IMG/VR virus record: IMGVR_UViG_3300029893_000053
Span: 488-28,251 of that record
Reading direction: 5' to 3' (one strand)
DNA length: 27,764 nt
Source: a virus
Part shown: piece by piece, positions 1 to 27,001 of the stretch
Layout: each line of letters begins with the position of its first letter
How positions within the stretch are numbered: position 1 is the first letter of the stretch
Position numbers and translations under genes: made by a program
The notes under the pieces: generated by a model
Seen by the model: only the letters and a program-made list of their open reading frames with translations
Databases searched by the model: none
What the model was told of the DNA's origin: nothing

Positions 1-477
1 GGACACTTTGTTGTAATGCCCAACATAGAGCTCGCCGTACTTCATGTACGACTCTTTGAGACCGCTGTATACGACGCGAACGCCGTAATCCTTGCAGTGA
101 AGCTGTTCCGCCAAAGACAAGCCCTCAAGTCCATGCAATGAGCGGGCGTTCTCGATGATGTAGTTTTGGAATCGATGCTCATGATTCCCGTACACATAGT
201 GGATCTTGCAGTCCTCGCCCACAGTCGCCCGTAGTTTTGCGAGAAATGCCCTCCCCTCTTTGATTTCTTCAACCATAGATACTTCCTTGAACGGATCATT
301 GACGAAACGTCCAACCGTCTGGCAGTCCAGAAGGTCGCCGTTAATGATGACCACGTCCGGGGAAAACCATTTCAAAAAATCAAACAGGAGCCGAACAACC
401 TTCACATCATGGAAGGGAATGTGCACGTCGTTGATAACGACGCACTTTTCGTAGCTAGCTTGAGTCGGAGCTTTCAT
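1..477 (-). CDS. Calcineurin-like metallophosphoesterase, partial
   Basis: The frame is open from 477 to the left edge with no stop, so the C-terminus lies outside the window. It shows the metallophosphoesterase metal motifs in order: D-x-H in NDVHIPFHD near residue 20, GDxxD in NGDLLD near residue 50 and GNHE in YGNHEHR near residue 95. These families bind two metal ions and hydrolyse phosphomonoesters or diesters; the phage substrate is unknown. The start was set at 477 because AAAGGAGG lies six bases upstream; an in-frame ATG at 483 sits directly on the ribosome site and is less likely. It overlaps the upstream zinc-ribbon gene by 23 bases and is the last readable gene of the late operon. 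Confidence 0.85.
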   Translation of the reverse strand, partial: MKAPTQASYEKCVVINDVHIPFHDVKVVRLLFDFLKWFSPDVVIINGDLLDCQTVGRFVNDPFKEVSMVEEIKEGRAFLAKLRATVGEDCKIHYVYGNHEHRFQNYIIENARSLHGLEGLSLAEQLHCKDYGVRVVYSGLKESYMKYGELYVGHYNKVS

Positions 478-619
478 TTTCATCCTCCTTTGTTATGAGT
501 TTATACCGCCGTATAACCTCGCATGCCTCGCACAGATAGTAGTAGAGGGTGAAGCAAGAAAAGACTCGCTTCATCCCTCCACCACATACTGGGCAATGAA
601 ATGTTACTTCCGTTGCCAT
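455..619 (-). CDS. Small zinc-ribbon protein, 54 aa
   Basis: An unbroken short frame begins at ATG 619, two bases after an excellent AGGAGGGG ribosome site, and ends at TAG 455. The protein has two CxxC knuckles, C9/C12 (CPVC) and C30/C33 (CEAC), the pattern of a one-zinc ribbon, followed by a charged tail ending in several serines. It contains no other recognisable domain. It overlaps the start of the phosphoesterase by 23 bases, which suggests translational coupling. Binding of zinc is inferred from the cysteine spacing; the biological role is unknown. Confidence 0.7.
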   Translation of the reverse strand: MATEVTFHCPVCGGGMKRVFSCFTLYYYLCEACEVIRRYKLITKEDENESSDSS

Positions 620-639
620 AACCCCTCCTTGATTGTGTG

Positions 640-828
640 TCAGACAAGGTACAGGGGCGACAGAATTGAACCAACCACAGCGAAGATCGCCATGTACACC
701 GCATAGAGCGTGCCGGCGATGTATTCACGAAGCGTGAATTGTCGTCTGAATAAGCATTCCCAGACGAACAGTACCAGCAATGCGATGAGTGCAATGCCTG
801 CCACCCATGCCCATAGTCGAGCTACCAT
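640..828 (-). CDS. Small two-helix membrane protein, holin-like size
   Basis: The 62-residue product has two hydrophobic segments, roughly residues 8-26 (GIALIALLVLFVWECLF) and 38-58 (GTLYAVYMAIFAVVGSI), joined by a short basic loop (RRQFTLRE). The ATG at 828 overlaps the stop of the secreted-protein gene by seven bases, and an AGGTG lies just upstream. Size, topology and position near the end of the readable late operon would fit a holin, but no lysin neighbour is visible, so that role is only a possibility. It could equally be a virion or superinfection membrane protein. Confidence 0.6.
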   Translation of the reverse strand: MVARLWAWVAGIALIALLVLFVWECLFRRQFTLREYIAGTLYAVYMAIFAVVGSILSPLYLV

Positions 829-17384: not shown

Positions 17385-17612
17385 GTGGAAATCCACACGC
17401 CAAAATCCCGCGCTAAACCCTGCTGGGCGTTGGTCTACTACGACCTGAAGTGGAATGAGGGTTTTACCCTGCGCACAAAGCGCACCTCCGAATATTGTAA
17501 AGTGATGGCACAATACGGCGTATGTTCAATGTATCTTTTTTTGTCTACCTACACAGGACACACCTTTCAATACTTATCCACAATCAAAAAGAAGGCTGTT
17601 ACGCCTCCTTGA
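17385..17612 (+). CDS. Possible rightward small protein, 75 aa
   Basis: Beginning at GTG 17385, just after AAAAGG, the frame reads WALVYYDLKWNEGFTLRTKR, then YCKVMAQYGVCSMYLFLSTY and ends at 17612. The composition is protein-like with many aromatic residues and two cysteines, and it lies downstream of the rightward promoter. Against it, the start is not ATG, its 3' end covers the leftward terminator, and no family is recognised. A second 43-residue frame (17317-17448) starts three bases after the expected transcription start. Confidence 0.3.
   Translation: MEIHTPKSRAKPCWALVYYDLKWNEGFTLRTKRTSEYCKVMAQYGVCSMYLFLSTYTGHTFQYLSTIKKKAVTPP
17574..17582 (+). promoter_or_regulatory. Consensus DnaA box (TTATCCACA)
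   Basis: A perfect TTATCCACA nonamer lies in the control region directly beside the early terminator. A second perfect copy in the opposite orientation lies next to the early promoter. Single boxes bind DnaA with high affinity and may serve regulation or replication, but no AT-rich unwinding region or cluster of boxes is seen here. Confidence 0.4.
17586..17610 (-). terminator. Intrinsic terminator of the early operon
   Basis: On the minus strand AAGGAGGC, loop GTAACA and GCCTTCTT form an eight-pair stem with one G-U pair, continuing into a run of five T. The stem includes the stop codon of the last early gene, so termination occurs at the end of that gene. It separates the early operon from the late control region. 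Confidence 0.7.
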
Positions 17613-24575: not shown

Positions 24576-25169
24576 TTAAAAGGGTTGCCCGCTGTTATCA
24601 AGAACTGGAATGGCTTTCTCAAGCGTTGCCCCTGCTTTTTCTTTTTTGTAACACTCAATACATTTTGGATACTGCCCGGTATGCTCTGCTTTACAGAATG
24701 GGCAGACTTTGTACGACAAGGGCTTCTCGTCTGCTGGCATGTTAGCAATGCCCTTTGTCTTCTTCGCTGCTTTTGTGCTGTTGTCTCGTGTATCTGCGTC
24801 CTTCTCATCGTCAATGGCGAATAATCCGTTCAAGGCGTACTTGCGAGCATACGAGCTTGCTGCGCCGGTAATCTGACTTGCGTCCATACCCTTCTTAGTC
24901 TCCTCCTCTCGAGCAAGAGCCGTCGCCCATACTTCTCCACCATCAGCTTCATCAATAAGGGTTGCAGTCGCCTTGACGTAGTACCGATCGCCAACCTGTA
25001 ACATCTCATCCTTGATAAGCAGCGCTACCTTGTTCTTATCAAGTAATGGCTTTACAGCCTCCAAAATATCCTCACACGACCGGTACTTGTACCCACCAAA
25101 GGTATTAGTCTGACCTTTTGGTGCTTTAAGCTCTTGTTGAATAGTCCGTAACTTTGCAATGATTGTCAT
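24576..25169 (-). CDS. erf: ERF-type single-strand annealing protein
   Basis: The N-terminal half matches the ERF family: KLRTIQQELKAPKGQTNTFGGYKYRSCEDILEAVKPLL, VKATATLIDE, and the hallmark ITGAASSYARKYALNGLFAIDDEKDAD (about 97-124). ERF proteins anneal complementary single strands in phage recombination. A C-terminal extension carries a zinc ribbon, CPFC and CIEC near residues 157-172. It works naturally with the SSB and HNH proteins of the same operon. The start at 25169 follows the preceding gene by only four bases. Confidence 0.9.
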   Translation of the reverse strand: MTIIAKLRTIQQELKAPKGQTNTFGGYKYRSCEDILEAVKPLLDKNKVALLIKDEMLQVGDRYYVKATATLIDEADGGEVWATALAREEETKKGMDASQITGAASSYARKYALNGLFAIDDEKDADTRDNSTKAAKKTKGIANMPADEKPLSYKVCPFCKAEHTGQYPKCIECYKKEKAGATLEKAIPVLDNSGQPF

Positions 25170-25339: not shown

Positions 25340-25612
25340 TTATCTTAGTTCATCTTTAATATCGTTGATCCGACCTTTCTTTTGGCACTCCCAGCACACA
25401 AACTTCGTAACATCCCAATCCATATACTTCATCGTTGATAGGCTGACGTTATGCTCTCCGCAAGACACACACCGATCAATCTTCTTGCGATACCATGACG
25501 ACCAGCTACGAAACTCATTTGCCTTGAACTGCCCTCTAATATCTGCGGGTATCTCATTCCACCCATCAAGATTCTTTTGAGCCACTAGGCTCTTGTTGAT
25601 TGCTACTGTCAT
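25340..25612 (-). CDS. Zinc-ribbon early protein, 90 aa
   Basis: The start at ATG 25612 fits a TVAINKSLVAQKNLDGWNEIP opening; the longer frame from 25636 has no support. Two pairs of cysteines, C48/C51 (CVSC) and C73/C76 (CWEC), form a ribbon after a tryptophan-rich helix (FRSWSSWYRKKID). The C-terminus is charged. It overlaps the RHH gene by 47 bases. Probably contacts nucleic acid; role unknown. Confidence 0.65.
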   Translation of the reverse strand: MTVAINKSLVAQKNLDGWNEIPADIRGQFKANEFRSWSSWYRKKIDRCVSCGEHNVSLSTMKYMDWDVTKFVCWECQKKGRINDIKDELR

Positions 25613-25772
25613 ACATTTCTTGTAATTCCTTAACACTTATTTCGCCCTTGAACAGATAATCGACCACTGTTATCTGTTTATATCCATACTTCTCACTCAG
25701 CCCTTTAATTGGTACTTTCCAATGCTTTGGTATTCTGATATGAGTAGTATCTTTCTTATCCCACTCTGTCAT
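25566..25772 (-). CDS. Ribbon-helix-helix-like regulator, first early gene, 68 aa
   Basis: The segment DTTHIRIPKHWKVPIKGLSEKYGYKQITVVDYLF (about 8-41) has the alternation of a DNA-contacting strand followed by two helices, as in ribbon-helix-helix proteins. The end is polar and serine rich. As the first gene behind the early promoter it is well placed to repress its own operon. The start at 25772 has no ribosome site and lies behind a leader of about 300 bases. Family assignment is by pattern only. Confidence 0.55.
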   Translation of the reverse strand: MTEWDKKDTTHIRIPKHWKVPIKGLSEKYGYKQITVVDYLFKGEISVKELQEMYDSSNQQEPSGSKES

Positions 25773-25958
25773 ATGCTTCTGTTACCTATTAGGTGTCTAC
25801 ACCCCTCCCCCCGTATTCTTATCTCCAGCAGTTCCCATTGGTTAGTCCTTGTTTGCTTTCTGCTTACAGGGTTGTCCTTTGGTTCCTGGCTTCCTATCCT
25901 CCTCCCTAGATCCTGCTAGGGTCATCGGTAGTCTGCTGTGGATGAAGTTCCCGGGGGT
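25773..25958 (-). other. Rest of the early leader before the first gene
   Basis: This stretch has no convincing reading frame. It carries the hairpin CCCTAG/CTAGGG (25921-25904), a distant CAGCAG/CTGCTG pairing (25938-25933 with 25831-25826) and an ACCTA-T-TAGGT palindrome at 25784-25794. It is purine rich, with several GGAGG-like blocks. No T-rich terminator is seen. Confidence 0.5.
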
Positions 25959-26073
25959 ATGGGGTAAGACTCCCATTCAAGGAGGGGTTCCGTTGAATGA
26001 GGGTCATCTTCATGATCCCCTCCTAATCCAAGTAGCCTGTATACCGGCTTCTTAAATAGGAGTCTCACACCAT
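25959..26073 (-). ncRNA. Early leader RNA with closing stem and H-type pseudoknot
   Basis: A 15-position closing stem joins 26073-26059 (ATGGTGTGAGACTCC) to 25973-25959: 13 Watson-Crick pairs, one G-U and one mismatch. Inside are a hairpin at 26053-26030 (AAG-AGCC with GGCT-CTT) and a pseudoknot. GGAGGGG (26023-26017) pairs with CCCCTCC (25987-25981), and CATTCAA (25999-25993) pairs with TTGAATG (25980-25974). The last three 3' arms abut without gaps, so they can stack. The G-U pair would be A-C on the other strand, supporting this orientation. It begins about six bases from the predicted transcript start. No known family is recognised. Confidence 0.65.
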
Positions 26074-26085
26074 AGTCTTAATTCC

Positions 26086-26114
26086 ATTATAGTTAGCACT
26101 CTTGCCTTTGTCAA
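26086..26114 (-). promoter_or_regulatory. Perfect consensus early promoter
   Basis: On the minus strand TTGACA (26114-26109), exactly 17 bases, then TATAAT (26091-26086). Both boxes match the sigma-70/sigma-A consensus completely. Transcription should begin near 26079 and run left into the early operon. The spacer contains GAGTGCTAA, one half of the CIRCE heat-shock operator; the second half is only partly present. Confidence 0.8.
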
Positions 26115-26132: not shown

Positions 26133-26141
26133 TGTGGATAA
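26133..26141 (-). promoter_or_regulatory. Consensus DnaA box upstream of the early promoter
   Basis: TTATCCACA reads on the minus strand 19 bases upstream of the -35 box. It is the second perfect box in the window, the other being at 17574-17582. It could let host DnaA modulate the early promoter or mark a replication start. Confidence 0.4.
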
Positions 26142-26161: not shown

Positions 26162-27001
26162 CTAGCCGAAAATACGGCGGTGATGATCCTCTGCCACACG
26201 CTGATTGATTGAAGCGTAGTAACGCAAAGTTGTCCGGTCACTTCTGTGCCGAGCCAAGCATTGAGTGGATTTAATATCAACCCCTTTTTGTAATAGGTGT
26301 GTTACGAAGGTTCTGCGGAACACGTGATGATCAACCTCCCCACCAAGAAGTCTTTTAAGTGCTGCTCTGCTTGTCACCTGTTTTAATCGAGCCGTCCCCT
26401 TGTCATTAACAAACAACGCCTCATGATCATCTGCTCTTAAAAGCAGATACTCTTTGAGCCAATACAGACACCGCTCTGAAAAGTATATATACTGCTCATC
26501 TCCAGTCTTCACGTTTTTCACAACTAAGCTGCGAGTATCCCATGGCACGTCTTTCAAGTTCAACGCCAAGCACTCGCTAATCCGCAACCCCGTTGAATAC
26601 AAAACTTCAAGCAATGCTCTTGTGCGAGCCCCCAACCTATTACGAGGCAACTTCCCCAGTATGCGCTCCAAATCAACCTCGTCTAGCGACACGGGGTTTT
26701 TATATGGTATACTAGGATAGGCTATATCACGGTAATCAAAAGGAATATCCACACCATCTTCTTGCAGATACTTCAAATATGCGCGTATAGTTACTATACA
26801 CTTGAGGTGCGTGTGAGGCTTGCCCCTTCTAACGCCTATTTTGGCGATTTGAGAGGCTTTAAGCGACGAAATGGGTAAATCCCCCACAGAGGGTAGAATA
26901 TACGTCTCAAAAGCCCATTTCTTACTTGTAAAGGTTGTTTCTGAATATCCGATCGCATAACACCAATCAAGATACTCTTGTACTCGTTCTTTGAATAGCA
27001 T
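26162..27001 (-). CDS. int: Tyrosine recombinase / integrase
   Basis: The 279-residue protein has an N-terminal SAM-like DNA-binding part (about 1-85) and a catalytic domain from about 105. Catalytic residues are visible: R140 in TGLRISE, a lysine at about 162-165 in KNVKTG, H226/R229 in HHVFRRTFVTHLL, H252 in LARHRSDRTT and the tyrosine in LRYYA near 261. It is XerC/D-like in size. It would integrate or excise the phage, or resolve dimers. The start is ATG 27001, seven bases from a possible -10 box, so its transcript may be leaderless. No attachment site could be recognised. Confidence 0.9.
   Translation of the reverse strand: MLFKERVQEYLDWCYAIGYSETTFTSKKWAFETYILPSVGDLPISSLKASQIAKIGVRRGKPHTHLKCIVTIRAYLKYLQEDGVDIPFDYRDIAYPSIPYKNPVSLDEVDLERILGKLPRNRLGARTRALLEVLYSTGLRISECLALNLKDVPWDTRSLVVKNVKTGDEQYIYFSERCLYWLKEYLLLRADDHEALFVNDKGTARLKQVTSRAALKRLLGGEVDHHVFRRTFVTHLLQKGVDIKSTQCLARHRSDRTTLRYYASINQRVAEDHHRRIFG

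Follow-up and report, generated by a model that had tools for sequence, protein, structure and literature searches.

The put RNA of phage HK022 is a case of protein-free antitermination, working via the beta' zinc-binding domain. It is a structured RNA that opens the early transcript or lies close to its 5' end, behind a strong sigma-70 promoter. One such RNA, putL, is about 70 nt long, folds into two stem-loops and lies immediately downstream of PL (PMC9378689). Antiterminators consisting of RNA alone recur in mobile elements, and the EAR and canT RNAs, which are RNA-only as well, sit near the 5' part of long operons (PMC11658703). In riboswitches and RNA translational switches, one arm of a P1-type helix also belongs to a second helix, further downstream and close to the ribosome-binding region, while transcription attenuators place two mutually exclusive helices in the leader.

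We analysed a 320-nt leader that has something of each of these. It comes from a phage known as a 28,251-base IMG/VR virus record (IMGVR_UViG_3300029893_000053), of which positions 488-28251, a stretch of 27,764 nucleotides termed here the window, were studied. Like the HK022 put RNAs, the leader begins an early transcript below a strong sigma-70 promoter. Unlike them, it does not come down to two stem-loops in about 70 nt, and against the HK022 early region, which carries put, both blastn and a covariance model of the leader (model R1) gave chance-level matches only. Its place near the 5' part of a long operon is that of the EAR and canT RNAs, and antitermination is a candidate function here; by contrast with them, it has no Rfam match and belongs to different hosts. 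Its closing helix, P1, shares an arm with a downstream helix, P5, near the ribosome-binding region, as in riboswitches, but the leader has no Rfam family match, known ligand or conserved core. P1 and P5 also exclude each other as the helices of an attenuator do, yet neither is an intrinsic terminator. Finally, it adjoins the integrase gene and by inspection has inverted arms that may be read as the core, with its spacer of 6-8 bp, of a tyrosine integrase attP site; relatives have no such site at this place. It is a structured phage leader RNA in the broad sense, and we claim no named family for it.

The phage and its early operon

The phage is of the short-tailed type, with SU10-like capsid and portal proteins, a terminase, glycosyltransferases, an Erf annealing protein and a Xer-like tyrosine integrase. 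Nearly all genes of the window are carried by the minus strand. The closest TerL relative found is 41% identical. One TerL relative sits in a genome whose phylum-mates mostly measure 0.5-1.2 Mb, the best cellular relatives of the integrase (about 40% identical) also belong to such small, Patescibacteria-type genomes, and a long glycosyltransferase is common to this phage and to groundwater phages from Manatee Spring. To judge by these sequences, the host is probably a member of the Patescibacteria. To our knowledge, gene control in phages of this group is essentially unstudied, and the hosts have almost no experimental genetics. As a side observation, a recognisable Shine-Dalgarno sequence of at least four bases precedes just 3 of the 44 window genes surveyed, the strong ones clustering at the left end.

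The leader follows the integrase gene, which ends at 26162, and precedes the first early gene (25772-25566), after which comes the recombination operon with Erf:

26162-27001, minus strand: Xer-like tyrosine integrase, just upstream of the promoter (Pfam 8.2e-31; NCBIfam XerA/XerD-like)
26086-26114, minus strand: sigma-70 consensus promoter TTGACA-N17-TATAAT, matching at 12/12 positions, the only one in the scanned region
25760-26079, minus strand: leader RNA, from the predicted start into gene 1, with a predicted two-state fold (MFE -110.4, z about -4.4 to -4.6)
25566-25772, minus strand: first gene of the early operon, 68 aa, without family match
24576-25169, minus strand: Erf single-strand annealing protein of the early operon (Pfam ERF, 1.5e-43)
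17589-17610, minus strand: intrinsic terminator at the end of the early operon, the only convincing one there (8-bp stem, -11.0, T-rich tail)

The original prediction had placed a perfect consensus promoter directly above the RNA and a single visible terminator in an early operon of about 8 kb, and both are found as described. From the promoter spacing, transcription would start at about 26079, and the closing stem begins at 26074, 5-6 nt further on. The operon spans 25772 to about 17780. A scan of the leader for intrinsic terminators returned no terminator-like site.

Core stems and competing folds

A 115-nt core had been drawn as a 15-position closing stem, an internal hairpin and an H-type pseudoknot of 7 + 7 pairs, the three 3' arms lying end to end. 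The elements of that drawing, and those that compete with them, are the following:

26059-26074, minus strand: 5' arm of the closing stem P1, pairing with 25958-25973 (duplex energy -22.1)
25958-25973, minus strand: 3' arm of P1, common to P1 (state A) and P5 (state B)
26052-26058, minus strand: UAUUUAA, 5' arm of the P1 extension in the MFE fold, rival of CAUUCAA for 25974-25980
26020-26062, minus strand: hairpin H1, CUCCUA-UUUAAGAAGCC/GGUAUACA/GGCUACUUGGAUUAGGAG (-20.3 alone), predicted first stable fold of the nascent RNA
26001-26019, minus strand: hairpin H2, GGGaUCAU-GAAG-AUGACCC, of state B (-7.5 alone)
26017-26023, minus strand: 5' arm of P3, GGAGGGG, inside the Shine-Dalgarno-like AGGAGGGG; its partner in state A is 25981-25987 (-12.2 alone)
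25981-25987, minus strand: 3' arm of P3, CCCCUCC
25993-25999, minus strand: CAUUCAA, 5' arm of H3 (state B), the second pseudoknot stem of the original prediction
25974-25980, minus strand: UUGAAUG, 3' arm of H3 or of the P1 extension
25952-25970, minus strand: 5' arm of P5, GUCUUACCCCAUACCCCCG, overlapping the 3' arm of P1, with CCCCCG as an adjacent putative toehold (downstream duplex -33.7)
25795-25813, minus strand: 3' arm of P5, CGGGGGGAGGGGUGUAGAC, 23-41 nt upstream of the AUG of the first gene

All the drawn stems exist. P1 (26074-26059 with 25973-25958) contains one U.C mismatch and one G-U pair; the internal hairpin is H1, also readable as an inverted repeat around an 8-bp spacer; GGAGGGG/CCCCUCC and CAUUCAA/UUGAAUG provide seven pairs each, and the three 3' arms do abut without an unpaired base. 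On the transcribed strand the core has an MFE of -52.0 kcal/mol (z -6.3, 0/200 shuffles as stable), against -42.6 (z -3.4) on the opposite strand. The view that it is far more ordered than chance stands in this respect; it does not extend to uniqueness in the genome, since by z the stretch comes only sixth in a sliding scan of the window. Pseudoknots of 7+7 pairs whose 3' arms abut are by themselves ordinary (0.35 per strand of shuffled window in a descriptor search), and what is rare is the 15-pair closing stem beside it: the best was 12 pairs among 206 pseudoknot matches in 3.1 Mb of strand sequence. The inverted repeats do exist and exceed what chance would give. The strand preference that had been read from the G-U pair is borne out for the core and lost for the full 320-nt leader, where z is equal on the two strands (-4.41 and -4.39). 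We have dropped this bias as evidence for an RNA; the equality weakens the argument for selection acting on RNA and makes a cause at the DNA level possible.

The pseudoknot itself fares less well. UUGAAUG has two possible partners, UAUUUAA just past the 5' arm of P1 and CAUUCAA in the loop of P3. With the former, P1 grows to some 21 pairs and the energy of the nested fold is -54.0 kcal/mol; the nested part of the pseudoknot amounts to -43.5 kcal/mol, that is, 10.5 above the nested alternative before any pseudoknot term. The second pseudoknot stem is worth roughly -9 by our own estimate from nearest-neighbour sums, so that the pseudoknot could compete only if its initiation penalty were close to nil. 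As an RNA fold it comes out as disfavoured on nested energies, and its stems would fit two competing nested states better. On these energies the drawing is probably a merger of stems from both.

The second state appears when the whole leader is folded. P5 has a stronger duplex than P1 (-33.7 against -22.1), matched by 3/2000 shuffles of the downstream segment, and in the folding models the two helices are mutually exclusive. In RNAs of increasing length the computed order is H1, then H1+H2+H3, then the P1 form from about 114 nt. The pair probability of P1 is 1.00 at 125-270 nt, 0.82 at 307 nt and 0.12 at 320 nt, while that of H3 rises from 0.01 in the 125-nt RNA to 0.85 in the 320-nt RNA, where the 5' domain of state B consists of three adjacent hairpins, H1+H2+H3. 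The 480-nt RNA is a mixture of the two states (0.36 and 0.61). Adjoining P1, a six-pair CCCCCG/CGGGGG helix has a probability of 0.94-0.97 in every longer RNA at 37 C and would act as a toehold for strand invasion. A 21-pair helix of the leader is lost between the 130-nt and the 320-nt folds; complete loss of a helix of at least 20 pairs over the same step occurred in 0/200 shuffles and 2/250 natural segments. Promoter, stems, competing states and length dependence are all computed results, and the balance of the states is close and model-dependent, at differences of 1-2 kcal/mol that energy models do not settle.

Homologue searches and related integrase loci

An Rfam search, with riboswitches, C4 and EAR included, gave 0 matches at the gathering threshold, the others standing at E 0.97 and 3.6. 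DNA patterns (P1 with P3; either arm of P1; the abutting 3' arms) matched in viral contigs only at coding or chance sites, and blastn against phages and plasmids yielded no homologue of the leader. Neither did model R1 in 98 loci, in later loci and in two samples of small genomes (380 and 384), with the reservation that a model built from one sequence is insensitive, that the genome samples carried no positive control and that the collections searched were samples. Because no homologue was found, the stems have no covariation evidence. Neighbour-protein searches with the integrase and the 98-aa protein alone returned no viral relative. Among candidate identities, a tRNA or tmRNA was rejected by search and a known Rfam RNA for want of a match; as for a type III antitoxin RNA, the leader has no tandem repeats and the first three genes gave no toxin match.

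In the loci of three integrase relatives, L178, L200 and L205, the integrase is followed by a consensus-like promoter and then by small early genes, as here. L205 (IMGVR_UViG_3300031862_000049) is the closest viral relative of the integrase (40%). At L205:5150-5264 a second promoter is followed by an RNA, without convincing Rfam match, in which an 18-bp closing stem is exclusive with a 12-bp intrinsic terminator: the closing stem stands at 0.95 up to 112 nt and the terminator at 0.97 at 120 nt. This attenuator-like leader precedes a recombination gene that is Rad52-like by inspection. Both leaders lie between integrase and recombination operon with a promoter just upstream, and in both the 3' arm of the closing stem has a competing downstream partner. 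The competitor in L205 is an intrinsic terminator, whereas here it is a stem without U-run, 23-41 nt before the first gene, and the sequences are unrelated. By analogy of place and logic, L205 has the nearest functional counterpart. No such leader directly follows the post-integrase promoter of L200, and the relatives with 38-40% identical integrases have no matching repeat between integrase and early genes. L179 and L202 display a promoter, a structured RNA and an intrinsic terminator downstream of their integrases (L179:13754-13905, L202:5222-5415). With attenuator-like leaders at related integrase loci as well, RNA control may be common in this phage group.

Some further observations were made at these loci. 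L178 has, at 17420-17536 (minus strand, approximate), a clean H-type pseudoknot of 11 bp (ACCTGACGGGT/ACCCGTCAGGT) and 7 bp (GCCCCGC/GCGGGGC). It lies just past a consensus-like promoter of its own, and an HNH endonuclease gene begins 6 nt further on. We considered it as a second case of the leader and rejected it as a homologue, since comparison with L200 shows it to be part of an insertion, HNH gene included, at the integrase 3' end; the sequence would allow a mobile HNH element with a pseudoknot leader. The integrase leader at L200:5380-5455 has a strong terminator, GGAATCCC...GGGGATTCTTTTT, immediately ahead of the integrase start, and an antiterminator hairpin, GGATTCC...GGAATCC, overlaps it. 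L179, L200, L202 and L205 have in common a loose motif resembling TGGRSYAAGCGKTARAG. In several of these phages a DnaA-box-like sequence, TTATCCACA / TGTGGATAAC, adjoins the post-integrase promoter (window 26133-26141; L200 after the integrase stop; L178).

Competing readings of the leader

The reading that we favour, tentatively and with somewhat less than even confidence, is that of a cis-acting bistable 5' RNA controlling the early operon, as the folding models suggest. The nascent RNA would fold H1 first and at about 125 nt adopt state A, made up of P3 and the extended P1. Once 25813-25795 has been transcribed, CCCCCG/CGGGGG would pair beside P1 and P5 would invade it, freeing the 5' domain for the H1+H2+H3 of state B. 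With the two states nearly equal in energy, the RNA would flip as it reaches the start of the first gene, and a protein, the ribosome, the speed of RNA polymerase or a ligand might bias the choice and so set the expression of the early recombination genes. Both states would form in cells, with a signal choosing between them and expression changing as a result. The lack of a terminator in the leader makes classical attenuation unlikely; the output would more likely be the translation start of gene 1, the stability of the mRNA or a modified polymerase, and the place of P5, 23-41 nt before the first start codon, fits control of translation or stability. The bistable leader is supported by the perfect promoter, the z of -6.3 of the core, the 3/2000 shuffles for P5, the helix-loss statistics, the pair probabilities and the L205 leader. 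It is weakened by the lack of a homologue, the 1-2 kcal/mol limit of the energies, the mixed states at 480 nt, an L205 RNA that shares no sequence with it, and L200, which does without such a leader. The original idea that the early transcript starts with a structured regulatory RNA agrees with the position, the thermodynamics and the L205 analogy; the pseudoknot as its fold is not supported.

A real switch would be a case of RNA-only gating of phage early genes. That it would stand for a new class of early-operon RNA switch in Patescibacteria phages, in which a co-transcriptional flip would gate or time the recombination genes or else arm RNA polymerase against terminators, we hold to be unlikely. 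The two helices offer a clear break-and-restore test, workable in a standard bacterium.

Among the alternatives, a DNA element survives best, unlikely as it is. The repeats would serve the integrase as binding or crossover sites (attP-like, H1 being an 11-8-11 core) or a dimeric regulator as operators, with the RNA fold as a by-product. The element lies directly downstream of a Xer-like integrase; by inspection the arms TTTAAGAAGCC/GGCTACTTGGA of the H1 region flank the 8-bp spacer and about four related copies of CTCCYATTYAAG alternate in orientation; and the full leader folds equally on both strands. However, the repeats start at the predicted transcription start, the fold of the core is more stable on the transcribed strand (-52.0 against -42.6) and the 38-40% integrase relatives have no such repeat at this place.

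Rather unlikely, in our view, is a put- or EAR-like processive antiterminator, a folded 5' RNA that would stay on RNA polymerase and pass distal terminators such as that at 17610 before the late genes, with the pseudoknot, if formed, as the polymerase-binding fold. The place is fitting, at the extreme 5' end of an early operon of about 8 kb that a terminator closes, with putL as a precedent and RNA-only antiterminators recurring in mobile elements (PMC9378689, PMC11658703), but the pseudoknot comes out as disfavoured on nested energies, the leader resembles neither the HK022 early region nor any Rfam family, and a single convincing terminator leaves little visible need. A plain 5' stabiliser, in which a strong stem near the 5' end would slow the decay of the early mRNA and the second state would be incidental, seems improbable: P1 does begin 5-6 nt after the predicted start, and short transcripts already have it complete, but the structure far exceeds that need and the complementarity of P5 is unlikely to arise by chance.

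Control by a leader peptide is more doubtful still. AGGAGGGG, which is the best Shine-Dalgarno match of the leader and is sequestered in P3, and the AUG at 26013 would start a 35-codon frame (MKMTLIQRNPSLNGSLTPYPRELHPQQTTDDPSRI; 25906-26013, minus strand), whose translation would open P3, P1 and P5. However, its codon score of -0.17 is non-coding-like (real genes have a median of +0.13 and a 5th percentile of -0.17), it contains no regulatory codon run, and Shine-Dalgarno sequences are scarce in this phage (the 3/44 genes noted above). Very improbable, finally, is a separate or processed small RNA acting in trans, of the immunity type of P4 CI or P1 C4, which has the post-integrase RNAs of L179 and L202 as parallels and against it the lack of a terminator here and of a match to C4 and other Rfam families.

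A last observation concerns the left end of the window, where a 54-aa zinc-ribbon-like gene (455-619, minus strand) with a strong Shine-Dalgarno sequence has a long hairpin of about 20 bp inside its coding sequence; z for the region is -4.6 on the coding and -1.6 on the opposite strand. The Shine-Dalgarno sequence of the gene at 619, CAATCAAGGAGGGGTT (window 620-641), resembles the antisense of the P4/P3 junction at 19/22 bases, a likeness that is probably due to chance.
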